A stretch of DNA of 64,000 bases. Origin: Gemmatimonadota bacterium (GTDB taxonomy: Bacteria > Gemmatimonadota > Gemmatimonadetes > Longimicrobiales > RSA9). A model generated the notes under the pieces. That model did not search any database and had not been told where the DNA came from. It was given only the letters and a program-made list of their open reading frames with translations. The stretch is taken from positions 1-64,000 of the forward strand of contig SLCC01000086.1 in assembly GCA_007126035.1 (NCBI GenBank), read 5' to 3'. Within the stretch, counting starts at the first letter, position 1; every line of letters starts with the position of its first letter. Shown piece by piece: positions 46,181 to 55,269 of this stretch. A program made the position numbers and the translations under genes.

Positions 46181-47263
46181 TTATCTTGCGATCGCTCTCT
46201 TCATGACTTCCGCCTCGGAGACCACCTGCGCCATGGTTTCCAGGTCGACCGTCTGTGCCGCATCGGAAGCTGCCCGATCCGGTTCCGGGTGCGCCTCGAC
46301 CAGCAGGCCATCTGCGCCGCAGGCGATGGCGGCGCGGGCCAGGGGCCGGACGTAGACCCGTCGTCCCGTGCCATGGCTCGGGTCCACGAGGACGGGCAGC
46401 CGGGTGCGCTCCCTCAACACGGGTATGGCGTTCAGGTCCAGCGTGTTGCGGGTAGCCGTCTCGAAGGTCCTGATGCCTCGCTCGCAGAGGATGACCCGGG
46501 GGTTGCCGGCGGCGACGATGTATTCGGCGGCGCTCAGCCATTCGTCGATGGTGGCGGCCAGCCCTCGTTTCAGCAGTACGGGCCGTCGGGCGCGGCCCAG
46601 CTCCCTGAGCAGCGACGTGTTGTACATGTTCCGGGCGCCGACCTGGAGGACGTCGACGTATCGGGCTGCGATGGGGATCTGGGTGGCGTCCAGGACCTCG
46701 CTTACCAGGAGAAGTCCGTGGGCGGCGGCGGCATCGTGGGCGATGGCGAGCCCCGTCTCGCCCATGCCCTGGAAGCTGTACGGACTGCTCCTGGGCTTGA
46801 ATGCCCCGGCCCGGAGCGCGGCTCCTCCGGCGGCGGCCACGGCCGCGGCCGTGCGGTCCATGGTATCGGCGTCCTCCACGGAGCAGGGTCCGGCGGCGAT
46901 GAACAGCTCCGCCCCGCCGATCCACCTGTCCTTTACCTGGAAGCCGCGTTCCTCGGCGTCGGTGGGAGCGCCGTTGTCCGGATCCCATGCTTCATCTTCC
47001 GGTGCCGCCGTCGCGTGTGGGGCTGCCACCATGGGCGTGGCGCCGTCACCGTTCAGCGTGGCCGACACGCCCGGCATGTCCGCGATCGCCTCTGTGCCCA
47101 CCGGCGTGGTCGGGCTCGACTCCGTACCGGGAGCCGGTCCTGCGGTGGAGAGCACTACCCGCTCTCCGTCCAGCCGCAGGACGCGGATGCCGGTTCTGCT
47201 CAGCCGCTCCACCACGTCCGCGACCTGGGCCTCCGTCGCCGAAGGATCCATGACTATGATCAT
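46181..47263 (-). CDS. 3-deoxy-7-phosphoheptulonate (DAHP) synthase
   Basis: [90 protein letters not shown] overlap with trpA stop. Confidence 0.95.
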   Translation of the reverse strand: MIIVMDPSATEAQVADVVERLSRTGIRVLRLDGERVVLSTAGPAPGTESSPTTPVGTEAIADMPGVSATLNGDGATPMVAAPHATAAPEDEAWDPDNGAPTDAEERGFQVKDRWIGGAELFIAAGPCSVEDADTMDRTAAAVAAAGGAALRAGAFKPRSSPYSFQGMGETGLAIAHDAAAAHGLLLVSEVLDATQIPIAARYVDVLQVGARNMYNTSLLRELGRARRPVLLKRGLAATIDEWLSAAEYIVAAGNPRVILCERGIRTFETATRNTLDLNAIPVLRERTRLPVLVDPSHGTGRRVYVRPLARAAIACGADGLLVEAHPEPDRAASDAAQTVDLETMAQVVSEAEVMKRAIAR

Positions 47264-48105
47264 GCTGTCGCTCCTGGTTGCTGTCCGGTGGCCTGGTGCT
47301 GGGGGAGCTTGCCGGCCGGGGCCATGGCCCGCCGGAGCGCCCTTACCAGTTCGCCCACTGCCTCGCCGGGCCCGGCCCGGAAGGCGGTATCGACGAGGGC
47401 GCTGCCCACGATGATCCCGTCGGCGACGCCGGCGATGGAGGCGGCGTCGGCGGCAGAGGCTATGCCGAATCCCACGGCCACCGGCGCGGGGCCGGCAGCA
47501 CGGGCCTCCGCCACCCGCCGGCGCAGATCGACGGGATAGGCGCCGGCGCCGGTGACGCCGCGGTGTCGCATGACGTAGACGAAGCCCGTGGTAATCGCGG
47601 CGATCTGCCGGGTCCGGTCGATGCTGGTGTCGGGGCCTGTGAGGAACACCGTTCCGAGCCCGGCAAGGTGCGCCTCCTGGCGAAGGCTGGCGGCGTCGTC
47701 CACCGGCAGGTCGGGGATCAGGAGCCCACTCACCCCCGCCTCCGCCGCGTCCTGGCAGAACCGGTCCGTGCCATAGGCCAGGACGCAATTGAGCGCCACC
47801 ATGAGGACCACGGGGGCGCCGGTGGCAGCGGCGACCCGGGCCGCGCATTCCAGGGTGGCTGCCGTGGTCGCTTCGCCTGCCAGCGCCCGCTCGTAGGCGG
47901 ACTGGATGACGGGACCGTCGGCCAGAGGATCGCTGAAGGGGCTGCCCAGCTCGATGATATCGGCGCCCGCGGCCACGGCGGTCCGGGCCAGCTCCACGGT
48001 GGTGTGGTAGTCAGGGTCGCCGGCGGCCAGGAAGACTATCAGCGCGGCCCGATCTTCAGCGGCCGCCCGTGCGAAGGCCGCGGCGATTCGTTCTGGTCCG
48101 TTCAT
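47260..48105 (-). CDS. trpA: Tryptophan synthase alpha chain
   Basis: [53 protein letters not shown]. Confidence 0.96.
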
Positions 48106-49292
48106 GTGGTCCCTCCCGGTACCGAGTCCACGTCCTTGTCCCCACGGCCGGAGAGGCAGACCACCAGGACGCTCTCAGGTCCCAGCCGCCCCGCCCACTC
48201 CATGGCATGGGCCACCGCGTGGGCCGATTCAAGGGCCGGTATGATCCCTTCCCGGAGTGAGAGGGCGGCGAAGGCTGCCCGGGCCGCGTCGTCGCCGACG
48301 CTCAGGTAGCTGGCCCGGCCCACGTCGTGGAGCCACGAATGCTCGGGACCCACGCCCGGGTAGTCCAGGCCGGCGGCCAGGGAGTGGGTGCCCATTATCT
48401 GGCCGTCGCCATCCTGCAGGAGGTATGAGGCCGCGCCGTGAAGCACGCCGGGCCGGCCTCGGGAGATGCTGGCGGCGTGGCGGCCCGGCTCGAGCCCGGC
48501 GCCACCTGCCTCGACGCCCGTCAGCGCCACGTCATGGTCGTCGATGAAGGCGCTGAAGAGGCCGATGGCGTTGCTGCCCCCGCCCACGCACGCCACCAGC
48601 CCGTCGGGCAGCCGGCCCTCGGCCTCCAGGACCTGGGCCCGGGCCTCGGTCCCGATCACGGATTGCAGGGATCGCACGATGGTGGGGTACGGGTGGGGCC
48701 CCACGGCGGAGCCGATGAGGTAGTGGGTGTCCCGGTACGATGACATCCACTCCCGTATGGCCTGGTTGGTGGCCTCCTTCAACGTCCGCGAGCCCGTCTC
48801 CACAGGCACCACCTCGGCGCCCAGCAGCTCCATGCGGACCACGTTCAGGCGCTGTCTGGCCATGTCCGCCGAGCCCATGTAGACTCGGCAGGGCATGCCC
48901 AGTAGAGCGGCGGCGGTAGCGGAGGCCACGCCGTGCTGCCCTGCTCCGGTCTCGGCTATCAGCCGATCCCGACCCAGCTCACGGGCCAGCAGCGCCTGGC
49001 CCAGCGCGTTGTTGAGCTTGTGGCTCCCGGTGTGGCAGAGGTCCTCCCGCTTCAGGTAGATCCGGGCGGCATCGGGTCCCACGAGCCGGCGCGTCCGGTG
49101 GAGTGGCGTGGGTCGTCCCACGTAGGTCCGGAGCAGGGAGGCAAGCCGTGCCTGGAAGGCCGGGTCGGTGGAGACCTGGCTCCAGCCGGCGGCCAGGTCG
49201 TCCAGGGCGGGGATGAGCGTCTCGGGCACATAACGGCCACCGAAGGGGCCGAACCGCCCCGCGTCGGCCCCGGTCACAGGGGTCATGATCAT
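48102..49292 (-). CDS. trpB: Tryptophan synthase beta chain
   Basis: [60 protein letters not shown]. Confidence 0.97.
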
Positions 49293-50017
49293 CAACTATG
49301 CTCCATTTCCAGGTGGCGGGCTCTGCCCAGGAATGCGGACAGGCTCGCTGGATCCTTGATCCCCGGCGCCGTCTCGACGCCGGACGAAACGTCCACCATG
49401 GCGGGCCGGACCGCCGCCACGGCCTTCGCCAGGTTCTCCGCGGTCAGTCCGCCGGCCAGGGCGACCCGGTCACGAGGCCAGGGCAACCCGCGGACGGAGG
49501 CCCAGTCGAATGTCCGCCCGGTACCACCGAACCGACCCCGCAACGGGGGCGCGTCCAGGAGGAAGGCGTCCGCCGGGTAATCGGCGAAGCGCTCCGGGCC
49601 TTCGGCGGCTCGCACATGGACCGCTCGCAGCAGGCCGGGTGCGCGGCGGCCGGGTGCGGCCGCCCGGGCCGCCTCCATGATGGCCAGGCTCCGGACGGCA
49701 GGCTCACGGCCGGAGAGCTGGACCCAGTCCAGGTCGCAGGCCGCCACGACCTCGGCGACCAGGTCGGGGTCCGGGTCGACGAACACGCCCACCCGGGCCA
49801 CGTGCGGCGGTGCCCCGGACAGCACCTCCGCAGCCCTGGCCGGGTCGACCATGCGCGGGCTCGGCGCCAGGACCACACCCAGGGCCGCGGCCCCCAGTCG
49901 CGCGGCCAGCGCCGCGTCGGCTGGCCTGGTCAGCCCACAGATCTTGACCGCCAACCCGGCCGGCCCTTCGGGCAACGGTCGGGCCGACCTCGCGCCCTCC
50001 GGGAGCACGGGCCTCAT
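49292..50017 (-). CDS. trpF: Phosphoribosylanthranilate isomerase
   Basis: [79 protein letters not shown]. Confidence 0.95.
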
Positions 50018-50835
50018 GGCGTTCCCCGCCGGAGCACCCCGGCGAGCTGACGCAGCCGGACCGGCCGCACCGCCCGGGGCGCCAGGAGCAGCGCCTCTCC
50101 CACCAGCACGGCGTGGGCGCCGGCGTCCCGGACCCGGCGCACGTCGTCCGCCGACCGGATTCCGCTCTCGCTGACCACTACCGCGTGGGCAGGCGCCAGG
50201 GGGGCCAGGCGCTCCGTGACGGCGATGTCCGTGGTGAGGCGACGCAGGTCCCGGTTGTTGATACCGACCATCGTCGCGCCCGCCGCGGCCGCCCGTTCCA
50301 GCTCCTGCTCTGTGTGGACTTCCACGAGGCATTCCAGCCCGGCGACCCTGGCGGCGGCCAGCAGCGACGACAGCTCTCCAGCGTCCAGCATCGCCACGAT
50401 CAGCAGAGCCGCCGCCGCGCCCGCCAGCCGGGCCTCGAAGAGCTGTCCCGCGTCGACGATGAAGTCCTTGCGCAGTACGGGCACCTCCGGCTCGCCTGCC
50501 GCCACCGCTTCCAGGTCGGAAAGGGCGCCGCCGAAGTCGTCGCCGTCGGTGAGCACCGAGAGGGCGACGGCGCCGGCGGACCGGTACCCTGCCGCCACCG
50601 CCGTCGCCTCCTCGCCCGGGGCCAACAGCCCGGCGCTGGGGCTCCGGCGCTTGTACTCCGCCATCACGGCTATCCGGTCGCCGCCGGAGAGGGCCGCCGC
50701 CAGCGATGGCGCAACGGGCAACTCCCGGCACCGCTCCAGCAGGAGCTGGTCGGTGCCATTGTCGCGTGCCTGGCGACGACGACGGACGGCGTCGGCCTTG
50801 CGAGCCAGGAAGCCGCCGGGCGTTGCCGTCCTCAT
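50014..50835 (-). CDS. trpC: Indole-3-glycerol phosphate synthase
   Basis: VMAEYKRRSPSAGLL; VLRKDFIVDAGQLFEARLAGAAAALLIVAML; INNRDLRRLTTDI; SESGIRSADDVRRV. Confidence 0.96.
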   Translation of the reverse strand: MRTATPGGFLARKADAVRRRRQARDNGTDQLLLERCRELPVAPSLAAALSGGDRIAVMAEYKRRSPSAGLLAPGEEATAVAAGYRSAGAVALSVLTDGDDFGGALSDLEAVAAGEPEVPVLRKDFIVDAGQLFEARLAGAAAALLIVAMLDAGELSSLLAAARVAGLECLVEVHTEQELERAAAAGATMVGINNRDLRRLTTDIAVTERLAPLAPAHAVVVSESGIRSADDVRRVRDAGAHAVLVGEALLLAPRAVRPVRLRQLAGVLRRGTP

Positions 50836-51962
50836 CGGCCCCACCCCGCGGGCATGGCGGGCACGGCTGCCTCGACCTTCCGGACGGGGCGCCCAGCTCC
50901 GACGGTGCGGGAGAAGTCGACCAGCGCCTGGAGGCTTGCCAGGGCGCGGCCAGAGCGGATGCTGGCGCGAGCCGCGTCCATGCCGTCTCGCAGGTCCGCC
51001 GCCCGCCCGGCCACCACCAGCGCCGCCGCGGCGTTGAGGACCACCACGTCACGGCCGGCCTCCAGGTCGAAGCCGGCGGGCAGCCCGGCGTCGTGCCCGG
51101 CCCCGGCGTCGCCCAGGATGGCCCGGGCGATGGCCGCGTTATCCGCCGCGCTGCCGCCCCGCATGCCCGCCGCGCGGCGGGCGGGGAGACCGAGCTCATC
51201 GAGTCGCACCGTGCGCTCCCGGAGGGCGGAGCCGTCCCACTCCGCGACCAGAGACGGCCCCGTCACCGCCAGCTCGTCGAGCCCGCCGTCCCCGTGTACG
51301 ACCATGGCCCGGCGTGCTCCCAGACGGGCCAGCGCCTCGGCCACCGGGCGGACCAGCTCGGCATCGAACACGCCCACCACCTGGGCGCCGGAGCCGGCGG
51401 GGTTGCAGAGGGGTCCGAGCAGGTTGAACACGGTCCGGACCGCCAGCTCCCGGCGAACCGGTGAGGCGTGGCGCATGGCGGAGTGGTAGACGGGGGCGAA
51501 GAGGAAGGTGATACCTGCCGCTTCCAGCGCCCGGCTCGCTTCGTGACCGTTCATGGTCACGTCCACGCCCAGCGCCTCGAGCACGTCCGCCGAGCCGGTG
51601 GCGCTGGAGACGGCACGGTTGCCATGCTTCGCCACCTCGACCCCAGCCCCGGCCACCACGAAGGCGGCGGTCGTCGAGATGTTGAACGTGCCCGTCCCGT
51701 CGCCGCCGGTGCCGCAGGTGTCAACCAGCTCCGGTCGGGCGCCGGGGAAGGGCGCGGAGCGGGCCCGGATGGCACGGGCGCAGCCGACGATCTCGTCCAC
51801 CGTCTCTCCCTTCGAGCGGAGGCCCATGAGGAACGCCGCCACCAGCATGGGAGACAGCCCGCCCTCCATGACGGCGGACATGGAATCCATCGCCTGTTCT
51901 TCGTCCAGGTCCTGGCCCCGGGCCAGGCGGCGGAGCGCCTCGCGGATCGGGTGCTCGCTCAT
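50832..51962 (-). CDS. trpD: Anthranilate phosphoribosyltransferase
   Basis: LVDTCGTGGDGTGTFNISTTAAFVVAGAGVEVAKHGNRAVSSATGSADVLEALGVD. Confidence 0.96.
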   Translation of the reverse strand: MSEHPIREALRRLARGQDLDEEQAMDSMSAVMEGGLSPMLVAAFLMGLRSKGETVDEIVGCARAIRARSAPFPGARPELVDTCGTGGDGTGTFNISTTAAFVVAGAGVEVAKHGNRAVSSATGSADVLEALGVDVTMNGHEASRALEAAGITFLFAPVYHSAMRHASPVRRELAVRTVFNLLGPLCNPAGSGAQVVGVFDAELVRPVAEALARLGARRAMVVHGDGGLDELAVTGPSLVAEWDGSALRERTVRLDELGLPARRAAGMRGGSAADNAAIARAILGDAGAGHDAGLPAGFDLEAGRDVVVLNAAAALVVAGRAADLRDGMDAARASIRSGRALASLQALVDFSRTVGAGRPVRKVEAAVPAMPAGWGR

Positions 51963-52552
51963 GGGGACCTCCTCTGGTTCAGGAAATTGGAGAGTATCTG
52001 TTCGCCGGCGGCCGTCATTATCGACTCGGGGTGGAACTGGACTCCCTCGGCGGGCAACGCCTCGTGGCGCAGTCCCATCACCACGCCAGCATCGTCCCGG
52101 GCGCTGACCTCCAACTCCGGGGGCAGCGACGACTCGACCACCGCCAGGGAGTAGTAGCAGCCGGCGTCGAAGGGGACCGGTACGTCGACGAAGACGCCGC
52201 GGCCGTCGTGGCTGATACTGGCAGGCCTGCCGTGCACCGGCTCGGGCGCCGGTGTCACGGCGGCGCCGAAGACCCGGCCCAGGAGCTGGTGGCCCAGGCA
52301 GACGCCCAGGACCGGGCAGAGGACAGAGCCGCCGTCCAGGCCCAGGGCCCGACGCACCACTGCCGCCGCGTTCCCGGCGCGGTCCGGGTGGGAGGGGCCC
52401 GGTGAGATGATCAGTCCCGCAGGCCCGATCGCCTCGAGGCGGGCCGGATCCAGCGCGTCGTTGCGGACCACGTCCACCTCGGCACCGAGGCAGCCCAGGA
52501 TCTGGACCAGGTTGAACGTGAAGGAGTCGTAGTTGTCCAGGACCAGGATCAT
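51959..52552 (-). CDS. trpG: Anthranilate synthase component II (glutamine amidotransferase)
   Basis: MILVLDNYDSFTFNLVQILG; PGPSHPDRAGN; VLGVCLGHQLLG; GVQFHPESI. Confidence 0.95.
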   Translation of the reverse strand: MILVLDNYDSFTFNLVQILGCLGAEVDVVRNDALDPARLEAIGPAGLIISPGPSHPDRAGNAAAVVRRALGLDGGSVLCPVLGVCLGHQLLGRVFGAAVTPAPEPVHGRPASISHDGRGVFVDVPVPFDAGCYYSLAVVESSLPPELEVSARDDAGVVMGLRHEALPAEGVQFHPESIMTAAGEQILSNFLNQRRSP

Positions 52553-54240
52553 GGCTGAAGCCCTCCAGTCTGCTCCAGGGCCTCGATAAGGGCTCGCGCC
52601 TTCTCCGCCGTCTCCGCCAGCTCCCGCCGCGGGATCGAGTCGGCTACCACGCCGGCGCCCGCCTGGACCGTGGCCCGGCCCCGCCGGATGACGATCGTGC
52701 GGATCGTGATGCACGCGTCCAGGGAGGTGGCGCCCGGAGCGATATGCGCCACGGCACCGGCGTAGGCGCCACGCCGCGTCGTTTCCAGCTCCTCGATCAG
52801 CTCCATGGCCCGGACCTTCGGTGCCCCCGATACGGTGCCTGCGGGAAAGCAGGCGGCAAAGGCGTCCAGCGCGTCCACGCCTTCCCGGAGCCGACCCGTC
52901 ACCACCGAGACCAGGTGCATCACATGGCTGAAGCGGTCCACCTCCATGAGCCGGGGCACGTGGACCGACCCCGCTCGGCAGACACGGCCCAGGTCGTTCC
53001 GCCCCAGGTCAACCAGCATCACATGCTCAGACAGCTCCTTCGGGTCCGCCCGCAGCTCCGACTCGAGCCGCGCGTCCTCCTCCGGGTCGGCACCACGGCG
53101 ACGGGTGCCCGCTATGGGCGATACCTGCGCGGCCCCGTCCTCCACCCGGACCAGCATCTCGGGCGACGCGCCGGCGAGGGTGACCTCGGGGAACTCCAGG
53201 AAGAACATGTACGGCGCCGGCGACACCCGCCGGAGCGCACGGTACAGGTCGAACGGGTCACCCTCGAAACCCGTCTCCAGGCGTCGGGACAGCACCACCT
53301 GGATCGCCTCGCCCGCCCTGATCAGCCGCACCGCCTCCGCCACGGACGAGAGGAAGGTGCCGTCGTCCGGGTGCCAGCGGGCAGCGGAGCCGCCGGGGCC
53401 GGCGGTGGCGACGCCCCGTGTGGAAAGGTGGCCCGTGTCGTCACCGCCGGCGTCAGGGCCGCTCAGGGCCGCTCCGACGCCGTGCCGATGGGGCCGCGGC
53501 TGGAACGTGGGGGCGCGACCCCGCCGCAGGGCGTCCAAGACCCCGTCGATCCTGCCCCGAGCCCGGCGGAGCCGTTCCGCCCTCGCCGCGTGGTCCCGGG
53601 AAGGTGGCAGCAGGGAGATCGCCAGCATTTGCTGCCGCGCGTGGTCGAACGCCAGCACGGTATGGAAGCGGGCGAACAGAGCGGCCGGGAAGCCTGTCTC
53701 GTCCGCCAGCTCCACCGGCAGCCGCTCCAGGGTCCGCGACAGGTCGTAGCCGAAGGCGCCCACCAGCCCGCCGACAAAGCCCGGCAGGTCGGCCCCACCC
53801 ACGCCCCAGGTCTCCGTCGGCGACGAGCCCGCCACCGGTCCGCCGCCGGTCCAGACGGCTGTCTGCCCGGCCAGCCGGCGCACAGCGTCCAGCGGGGCCC
53901 CGCGGTAGGCCGCCACCTCCGAGTCGCCCGTCACCGTCCCCCGGTCCAGGTCCGCCCGGAGCACCCTGTCCGGTGCGGCACCGATGAAGGAGTAACGGCC
54001 CAATCTGCCGTCGTGCTCGCCACTCTCCAGCAGGAAACCGGTGCCGCCACGGCGGAGCTTCAGGAATGCCGAGACCGGTGTCTCGGTGTCCGATGGCAGC
54101 GATACCCAGACCGGGACCACCGCGTCGAGTGGCGCTGACAGCACCTGCTCACGCAGTGACTCGTCCACCGCGCTCCCGGTGGCCCCTGGGCCGGGCGGCG
54201 CGTGCTGACCGCCGGTCGCCGTGTGTGTTGCCGATCGCAT
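52549..54240 (-). CDS. trpE: Anthranilate synthase component I
   Basis: GTGFLLESGEHDGRLGRYSFIG (LLES feedback-type motif); SPEMLVRVEDGAAQVSPIAGTRRRG; FAACFPAGTVSGAPKVRAMELIEELE. Confidence 0.96.
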   Translation of the reverse strand: MRSATHTATGGQHAPPGPGATGSAVDESLREQVLSAPLDAVVPVWVSLPSDTETPVSAFLKLRRGGTGFLLESGEHDGRLGRYSFIGAAPDRVLRADLDRGTVTGDSEVAAYRGAPLDAVRRLAGQTAVWTGGGPVAGSSPTETWGVGGADLPGFVGGLVGAFGYDLSRTLERLPVELADETGFPAALFARFHTVLAFDHARQQMLAISLLPPSRDHAARAERLRRARGRIDGVLDALRRGRAPTFQPRPHRHGVGAALSGPDAGGDDTGHLSTRGVATAGPGGSAARWHPDDGTFLSSVAEAVRLIRAGEAIQVVLSRRLETGFEGDPFDLYRALRRVSPAPYMFFLEFPEVTLAGASPEMLVRVEDGAAQVSPIAGTRRRGADPEEDARLESELRADPKELSEHVMLVDLGRNDLGRVCRAGSVHVPRLMEVDRFSHVMHLVSVVTGRLREGVDALDAFAACFPAGTVSGAPKVRAMELIEELETTRRGAYAGAVAHIAPGATSLDACITIRTIVIRRGRATVQAGAGVVADSIPRRELAETAEKARALIEALEQTGGLQP

Positions 54241-54282
54241 CCCGCTCTCCCCTCCGCCCACAACGGGCGGGTAGACAGGTAC

Positions 54283-54330
54283 AAAAAGAGGCGGGCGCGC
54301 CCCTCTGCTTCGAGAGGAGCGCGCCCGCCT
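54283..54330 (-). terminator. Rho-independent terminator/attenuator (3:4 hairpin) of the trp leader
   Basis: Minus strand AGGCGGGCGCGCTCCTCT-CGAAGC-AGAGGGGCGCGCCCGCCT-CTTTTT: 18-bp arms with 1 mismatch plus U-tract. Confidence 0.93.
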
Positions 54331-54359
54331 GGGGTCGACGCCGGTACTACCTGTTCAGA

Positions 54360-54452
54360 TCACGAACTCCCGGCGCTCACGCACTCCTCCCCCGACGGCC
54401 ACCACCACCAGCCGCTGCCGATCATTACGGGAAACAGAGTGCGCTCGATCAT
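54360..54452 (-). CDS. trpL: trp operon leader peptide with four consecutive Trp codons
   Basis: MIERTLFPVMIGSGWWWWPSGEECVSAGSS* ending 30 nt before the terminator; TGGx4 at 54399-54410; a shorter start (MIGSGWWWW...) is possible. Confidence 0.88.
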   Translation of the reverse strand: MIERTLFPVMIGSGWWWWPSGEECVSAGSS

Positions 54453-54567: not shown

Positions 54568-55269
54568 ATGTGGGAAGCGCAGATACGGCATGCGCTCGCG
54601 GAAGTGGGCGAGCGGATCGATAGAGCTCTGGTAAGAGCTGGGCGGGCGGAGGGCGTTCAGGTCATCGGGATCACCAAGGGCCACCCCACCGAGGTGGTCC
54701 AGGCCGCCTTGCAGGTCGGCCTCCGTGCCCTGGGCGAGAACCGGGTCCAGGAGCTGGAGCAGAAGGTGGCCGAGGTGGGGCGCGACGCCGCTGAATGGCA
54801 CATGGTCGGCCATCTCCAGCGCAACAAGGCCCGCTCCGCTACAGCAACCTCCGACTGGATCCATTCGTTGGATTCACTCAGGCTGGGCAGGACCCTGGAT
54901 CGGGAGGCGTCTCGGGCGGGGCAGCCGATCCGCGCGCTCCTCCAGGTGAACACATCCGGTGAAGCGAGCAAGGGCGGGTTCGAGCCGGAGACGGCAGTTC
55001 AGGCTCTGGCAGAGCTCAGCGAGCTGGGCTCCCTGGAGATCCATGGCCTCATGACGATGGCGCCGTGGACCGACGACGAGGCGGTCCTGCGGACCACGTT
55101 CCGCAGGACCCGCGAGCTGCTGGAGCGGTGCGAGCAGGAGCTGCCCGGCGCACTGCGCGGGCGCGAGCTCTCCATGGGGATGAGCAATGACTTCGAGATC
55201 GCCGTCGAGGAAGGCGCGACAATGGTCCGCCTGGGGACGGTTCTTTTCGGTGAAAGGGAGCAGCGATGA
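54568..55269 (+). CDS. YggS/PLPBP family pyridoxal phosphate homeostasis protein
   Basis: VQVIGITKGHPTEVVQAALQVGLRALGENRVQELEQKV; WHMVGHLQRNKAR; LSMGMSNDFEIAVEEGATMVRLGTVLFGER. Confidence 0.94.
   Translation: MWEAQIRHALAEVGERIDRALVRAGRAEGVQVIGITKGHPTEVVQAALQVGLRALGENRVQELEQKVAEVGRDAAEWHMVGHLQRNKARSATATSDWIHSLDSLRLGRTLDREASRAGQPIRALLQVNTSGEASKGGFEPETAVQALAELSELGSLEIHGLMTMAPWTDDEAVLRTTFRRTRELLERCEQELPGALRGRELSMGMSNDFEIAVEEGATMVRLGTVLFGEREQR

Follow-up and report, generated by a model that had tools for sequence, protein, structure and literature searches.

The 64-kb window analysed here (the whole stretch of DNA, from a Gemmatimonadota genome) raises the question of whether a short, Trp-rich open reading frame (ORF) and a hairpin ahead of trpE together form a ribosome-mediated transcription attenuator. 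Attenuation of the classical type is a textbook mechanism, with most descriptions coming from Proteobacteria and Actinobacteria; its enterobacterial trp form (Rfam Trp_leader, RF00513) combines a leader ORF bearing tandem Trp codons with alternative 1:2, 2:3 and 3:4 pairings and with a terminator before trpE. The initial annotation of the locus proposed this classical logic, and the proposal is supported by the Trp run and alternative pairing in five further genomes and by compensatory changes. It is highly probable that the locus encodes a ribosome-mediated transcription attenuator of the trp operon, presumably responding to tryptophan, which would make it a known kind of regulator in a lineage for which no report was found. 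Among the papers searched, none reports leader-peptide attenuation or a trp operon in Gemmatimonadota, and the wide survey of Lopatovskaya 2010 (cited in PMC4833913) may contain an earlier prediction.

Leader ORF, terminator and alternative pairings in the window

All elements of the leader lie on the minus strand. The leader ORF, trpL (MIERTLFPVMIGSGWWWWPSGEECVSAGSS*; 54452-54360), comprises 31 codons including the stop (30 residues) and has homologous leaders in five other genomes. Within it, the WWWW run that had been read at 54399-54410 is in place as four tandem TGG codons (TGGTGGTGGTGG), the Trp-codon sensor; this is the sole copy in the 64-kb window on both strands, compared with 0.01 expected by shuffling. 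A promoter-like site, read from the sequence, spans 54491-54462 (TTGACA at 54491-54486, a spacer of 18, and TATCCC at 54467-54462); it scores under the threshold of a consensus promoter scanner, and its -10 hexamer is poor. The leader ATG (54452) follows TATCCC by ~9 nt and has no Shine-Dalgarno sequence, so the mRNA would be near-leaderless. A TTGAC box and an ATG located 6-10 nt after a -10-like hexamer are kept in all six members (the window and the five other genomes), and translation of the leader probably starts at a (near-)leaderless 5' end, given the predicted transcription start.

Between the leader ORF and trpE, the first structural gene, the expected 18-bp hairpin ending in CTTTTT was found as an intrinsic terminator at 54330-54283 (18-bp stem at 54330-54289, loop of 6, then CTTTTT), in a 500-nt region where shuffling predicts 0.2 terminator-like sites. 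Strand 1 (54444-54428), taken from the minimum free energy (MFE) fold, pairs with strand 2 (54394-54379; core GAGGAGUGCGU at 54389-54379, which fits the motif GAGNRGUGCGY of the six members) in a pause or anti-antiterminator hairpin. Strand 3 (54330-54312) has two alternative partners, namely strand 2 in the antiterminator (via 54324-54312) and strand 4 in the terminator. An additional hairpin supported by compensatory changes, here called H (54376-54338, arms 54376-54370 and 54344-54338), surrounds the leader stop codon. Both alternative pairings suggested in the initial annotation can form: the 1:2 candidate (54444-54428 with 54394-54379) is part of the window MFE fold, and the 2:3 antiterminator is longer than claimed, with 13 continuous pairs (54391-54379 with 54324-54312) and a duplex energy of -28 kcal/mol. 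The free leader folds into 1:2, hairpin H and 3:4 at -89.8 kcal/mol, and a slightly longer stretch around the leader has a fold z-score of -3.1.

Ribosome stalling was simulated by hiding all leader bases as far as 11 nt beyond the first Trp codon with strand 4 absent, and under these conditions the window forms the 2:3 antiterminator. The same simulated stall before strand 4 yields 2:3 as the predicted fold in 6/6 members, as predicted for a masking test. With strand 4 present, the terminator forms in the window and in G353; in the window it is stable enough for strand 4 to displace 2:3 at equilibrium, and the switch must therefore be kinetic. When the window sequence was shuffled, 427 of 1000 shuffles gave a 1:2 pairing as good (not significant) and 33 of 1000 a 2:3 pairing as good (moderate). 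The 1:2 pairing is conserved and recurs in the MFE fold of every full-length leader, but shuffles often pair too. These weak results can be attributed to the very high G+C content of the region, so that comparison across genomes is needed.

Conservation in relatives and the weighing of alternatives

A TrpE search over one genome per species identified four loci, all from Gemmatimonadota, with 75% (L031), 70% (L032), 59% (L033), and 58% (L034, Candidatus Kutchimonas denitrificans) identity to the window. Leaders are found at three of them (L031, MTKRTLSPAMAGWGWWWWPWGEECAIAGG; L033, MSTHYSYRYAREGWWGWWWPQPRGVVRGFWGSTA; L034, MSTYHSLRYAGNGWWAWWWPGPQGVVRGFRRTTG*) and the leader is absent at the trpE of L032 (G212), despite its close TrpE homolog. 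In G353, G192, and G366 the leader lies upstream of trpE-G-D-C-F-B-A-DAHP synthase, in the same order as in the window. A covariance model of the leader run over 398 genomes of the class added G104 (2e-14; leader MRRTISLRTAVRWAWWWRPPQGVVRLVQRPIG) and G223 (7e-13; leader MTRRLYNSDGWWFWRWRGLRRVVRASRRIIG), and none of the matches inspected below ~39 bits was a Trp attenuator. The carriers besides the window are thus five Gemmatimonadota genomes from three further families, and the genes behind the leader are the trp operon in four genomes and a trpB-like gene in G104. In the latter genome, which has no trpE match, an exact 127-nt overlap between two contigs (C25 and C41; L163/L212) shows the attenuator to lie upstream of the gene for a 455-aa TrpB-like protein of the TIGR01415/PRK12391 type, again related to tryptophan. 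In G223 (L164:1380-1460, minus strand), the attenuator is followed by a short ORF starting MYELKVTVKKVMGACTATPPMKPGDYFTV, presumably resembling the TIGR04076 family, that is interrupted by a 100-N scaffold gap. A relic with a terminator and strand-2 remnants occurs in G331, a genome of the same genus as G192 (L165:1350-1800, minus strand); the relic lacks a leader ORF, the genome lacks trpE, and the upstream flank is similar to that of G192. In G331 the operon appears to have been lost, leaving the decayed attenuator RNA behind.

Each of the six leaders contains 4-6 Trp codons (WWWW, WGWWWW.W, WWGWWW, WWAWWW, WAWWW, and WWFWRW), and outside these codons the leader peptide is not conserved. The strand-2 core GAGNRGUGCGY is present in 6/6 members, with the form GAGGAGUGCGU/C in two and GAGURGUGCGC in the remaining four. 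The leader ORFs of the window and G353 cross this core in frame 0, giving GEEC, and those of the other members cross it in frame 1, giving GVVR or RVVR; its maintenance across two reading frames indicates selection on the RNA, not the peptide. Since MAFFT alignments misplace strand 1, the sequences were re-cut and a six-member structure-guided alignment was used. Across 29 pairs, 96% of cells are paired compared with 86% in shuffled controls, counts that lean towards the modelled structure because the alignment was fitted to it; sliding the partner by 1-3 columns reduces pairing far below this level, to 41-56%. Compensatory double changes occur in 10 of the 29 pairs, and the covariation score is 0.457 (control, 0.25). 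Double changes affect 6 of the 17 consensus pairs of the terminator and 4/7 consensus pairs of hairpin H, which encloses the leader stop codon in 6/6 members; in the 5-bp core of 1:2, 96.7% of cells are paired, with double changes in 0 core pairs. The conservation check on the Trp-codon run and the alternative pairing therefore came out positive for both, in leaders whose peptides differ in sequence. The retention of these parts by relatives whose sequences have diverged widely makes it very probable that the device is functional in Gemmatimonadota. A chance origin was rejected on the basis of the conservation of the Trp run, the pairing, and strand 2.

These comparisons also bear on the other ways in which the locus could be read. 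A constitutive intrinsic terminator next to a chance Trp-rich ORF, with no switch, would be compatible with the G+C-rich region and the weak shuffle results for 1:2 and 2:3 within one sequence, yet the Trp run, strand 2, and the terminator stay together in six genomes despite changed leaders. Such a terminator would, moreover, have no upstream transcript to end, because the sole upstream gene is divergent (54568-55269, plus strand), and its only effect, downstream of the promoter and ahead of the operon, would be to silence the operon; this reading is considered very improbable. A similarly small probability is assigned to a mainly translational leader producing a conserved small peptide that acts in trans, as reported for peTrpL of Sinorhizobium meliloti, with attenuation being secondary. 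The near-leaderless ORF is a feature shared with S. meliloti (PMC7298713), but, owing to the different reading frame, the residues encoded by strand 2 are GEEC in two members and VVR in the other four, such that conservation tracks the RNA. Least probable of all is another Trp-responsive RNA (a T-box, a TRAP-type protein-binding leader, or a riboswitch): systems of this sort likewise end in alternative terminators, but the conserved sensor here is a UGG run inside an ORF and no match in the window attains the gathering score of any Rfam family. An Rfam search of the leader at E up to 10 returned chance hairpin matches only, with neither RF00513 Trp_leader nor a T-box among them; a match to mir-9456 was dismissed as merely a stable hairpin. 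Ribosome-mediated attenuation explains the locus far better than any of these readings.

The trp operon, its ancestry and its host

The operon downstream of the leader comprises eight genes, trpE-G-D-C-F-B-A-DAHP synthase (46181-54240). The first, trpE (anthranilate synthase component I; 54240-52549, minus strand), has TIGR00564 as its best NCBIfam match, under the curated cutoff of that family; the remaining genes (trpG, trpD, trpC, trpF, trpB, trpA, and DAHP synthase; 52558-46181, minus strand) were assigned from ORFs, with TrpB and DAHP synthase passing NCBIfam cutoffs. For trpE, the ATG at 54240, with GGAGGGGAG 6 nt upstream, is the more likely start and is favoured over the GTG at 54261. 

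In a TrpE tree of 74 rows, the trpE genes native to Gemmatimonadota cluster according to family, and the window TrpE forms a separate clade with those of G353, G212, G192, and G366 (SH-aLRT 100) that adjoins Acidobacteriota Thermoanaerobaculaceae (support 93). A topology that keeps the window TrpE with its family is rejected (p-AU 2e-59), and, as judged from these sequences, the TrpE and trp operon of the window are non-native to the host family. A constraint that unites all Gemmatimonadota TrpE in one clade is not rejected (p 0.16), and an ancient paralog kept in few lineages is accordingly possible beside transfer from outside. In five genomes examined by tblastn, no other gene of the operon was detected near the native trpE, and the native trpE loci inspected in the same order have no Trp leader of this kind. 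The absence of the attenuator from these loci indicates that it is not the standard trp control of the phylum. The assignment of the host to Gemmatimonadota, made earlier from gene content, agrees with the names of the nearest TrpE relatives and with ileS on the same contig, whose nearest matches come from two genomes of the window's own family and then from the same order. Contamination of the metagenome-assembled genome (MAG) was rejected on the basis of the ileS placement and the presence of the attenuator in the one-contig genome G192.

Proposed mechanism, known systems and other leaders in the phylum

In the proposed mechanism, transcription would begin just ahead of the leader ATG and a ribosome would load on the emerging 5' end. 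When charged tRNA-Trp is scarce, the ribosome would stall at the four UGG codons and mask strand 1, leaving strand 2 free to pair with strand 3 around hairpin H, such that no terminator forms and the polymerase could enter trpE-G-D-C-F-B-A-DAHP synthase. With plentiful tryptophan, the ribosome would pass strand 2 to reach the stop codon within H, 3:4 would form, and the transcript would end at ~170 nt; without translation, 1:2 would form, leading to termination as well. Hairpin H, located between strands 2 and 3, may serve to bring them together upon an upstream stall, and may be opened once the ribosome arrives at the stop codon.

The window shares tandem Trp codons, 2:3 and 3:4 pairings with a candidate 1:2 pairing, and a terminator before trpE with the enterobacterial trp attenuator, and the lack of an Rfam RF00513 match means that homology with it is not detectable. 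It differs from the enterobacterial system in its near-leaderless AUG and in the position of the stop codon, which here lies downstream of strand 2 (by 16 nt in the window) in the extra hairpin H, whereas the enterobacterial stop lies before strand 2. In the alphaproteobacterium Sinorhizobium meliloti, the transcript of the trpL attenuator of trpE(G) starts with the trpL AUG (PMC7298713). An AUG-start attenuator transcript (predicted here), Trp codons, and a terminator are common to both; the S. meliloti peptide has 14 aa compared with 29-34 aa here, and the S. meliloti attenuator controls trpE(G) only, as opposed to an eight-gene operon (PMC7298713). The trp attenuators of Corynebacterium and Streptomyces resemble the present one in having G+C-rich terminators, a triple-complementary conserved motif, and UGG codons (two or three there), but they belong to a different phylum and the actinobacterial motif is gGCC-rGCy-GGCC, in contrast to GAGNRGUGCGY / GCGCGCNYCUC here (PMC1262725). 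A Syntrophobacterales MAG (L051:2500-3000) resembles the window in carrying its own Trp leader (MIERTCLLHTGNWCWWRLLSP*) and a hairpin with a T run before trpE, but its leader is unmatched by the covariance model and its TrpE falls outside the window's clade.

Leaders for other amino acids were observed elsewhere in the phylum. Among the leuA loci of 28 relatives from the order, 13 have a leader rich in branched-chain amino acids (BCAA) followed by a terminator ~50 nt before leuA, compared with 0/560 shuffles; these are candidate leucine/BCAA attenuators and are widespread in the order (loci L213-L231; e.g., L167:1500-1750, minus strand, MVSLSLSLVLTLLLVGLIIIGPTKEGAYALRVQSS*). A Leu-rich leader and terminator before leuA were also found in G060 through sub-threshold model matches, and the window genome has no leuA match. 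Cys-rich leader ORFs (e.g., MMTHRACRRCCPCCRTIDARSPGSGRGCGARVPAGNGC*) with GC-rich terminators, some of them near-leaderless, occur at L204, L205, L206, and L208. Judged by sequence motifs, three genomes have an APS-kinase-like gene after the leader and then a cysH-like gene, and one genome has a sulfite-reductase-like gene in this position; the Cys-rich leaders are candidate cysteine attenuators. With BCAA leaders before leuA and Cys leaders before sulfate-assimilation genes, attenuation looks widespread in the phylum. The balance of evidence tilts slightly towards a broader reading, in which Gemmatimonadota would use attenuation widely (Trp, Leu/BCAA, and Cys), often from near-leaderless mRNAs. 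The Trp version, on this reading, would be a portable unit whose antiterminator is pre-folded by the stop-codon hairpin, and it would have travelled with a non-native trp operon and come to stand before a different tryptophan gene (trpB-like).

The points of note are the lineage, the association with an operon that is not native, the second use of the attenuator ahead of a trpB-like gene, and signs that attenuation serves several amino acids. The near-leaderless start and the stop-codon hairpin would be concrete variations on classical attenuation, and the attenuator appears to move together with its operon and, where that operon is absent, to survive as a relic. For Gemmatimonadota, a phylum that is little studied and has few members in culture, attenuation with candidate leaders for three amino acids would offer testable regulation.
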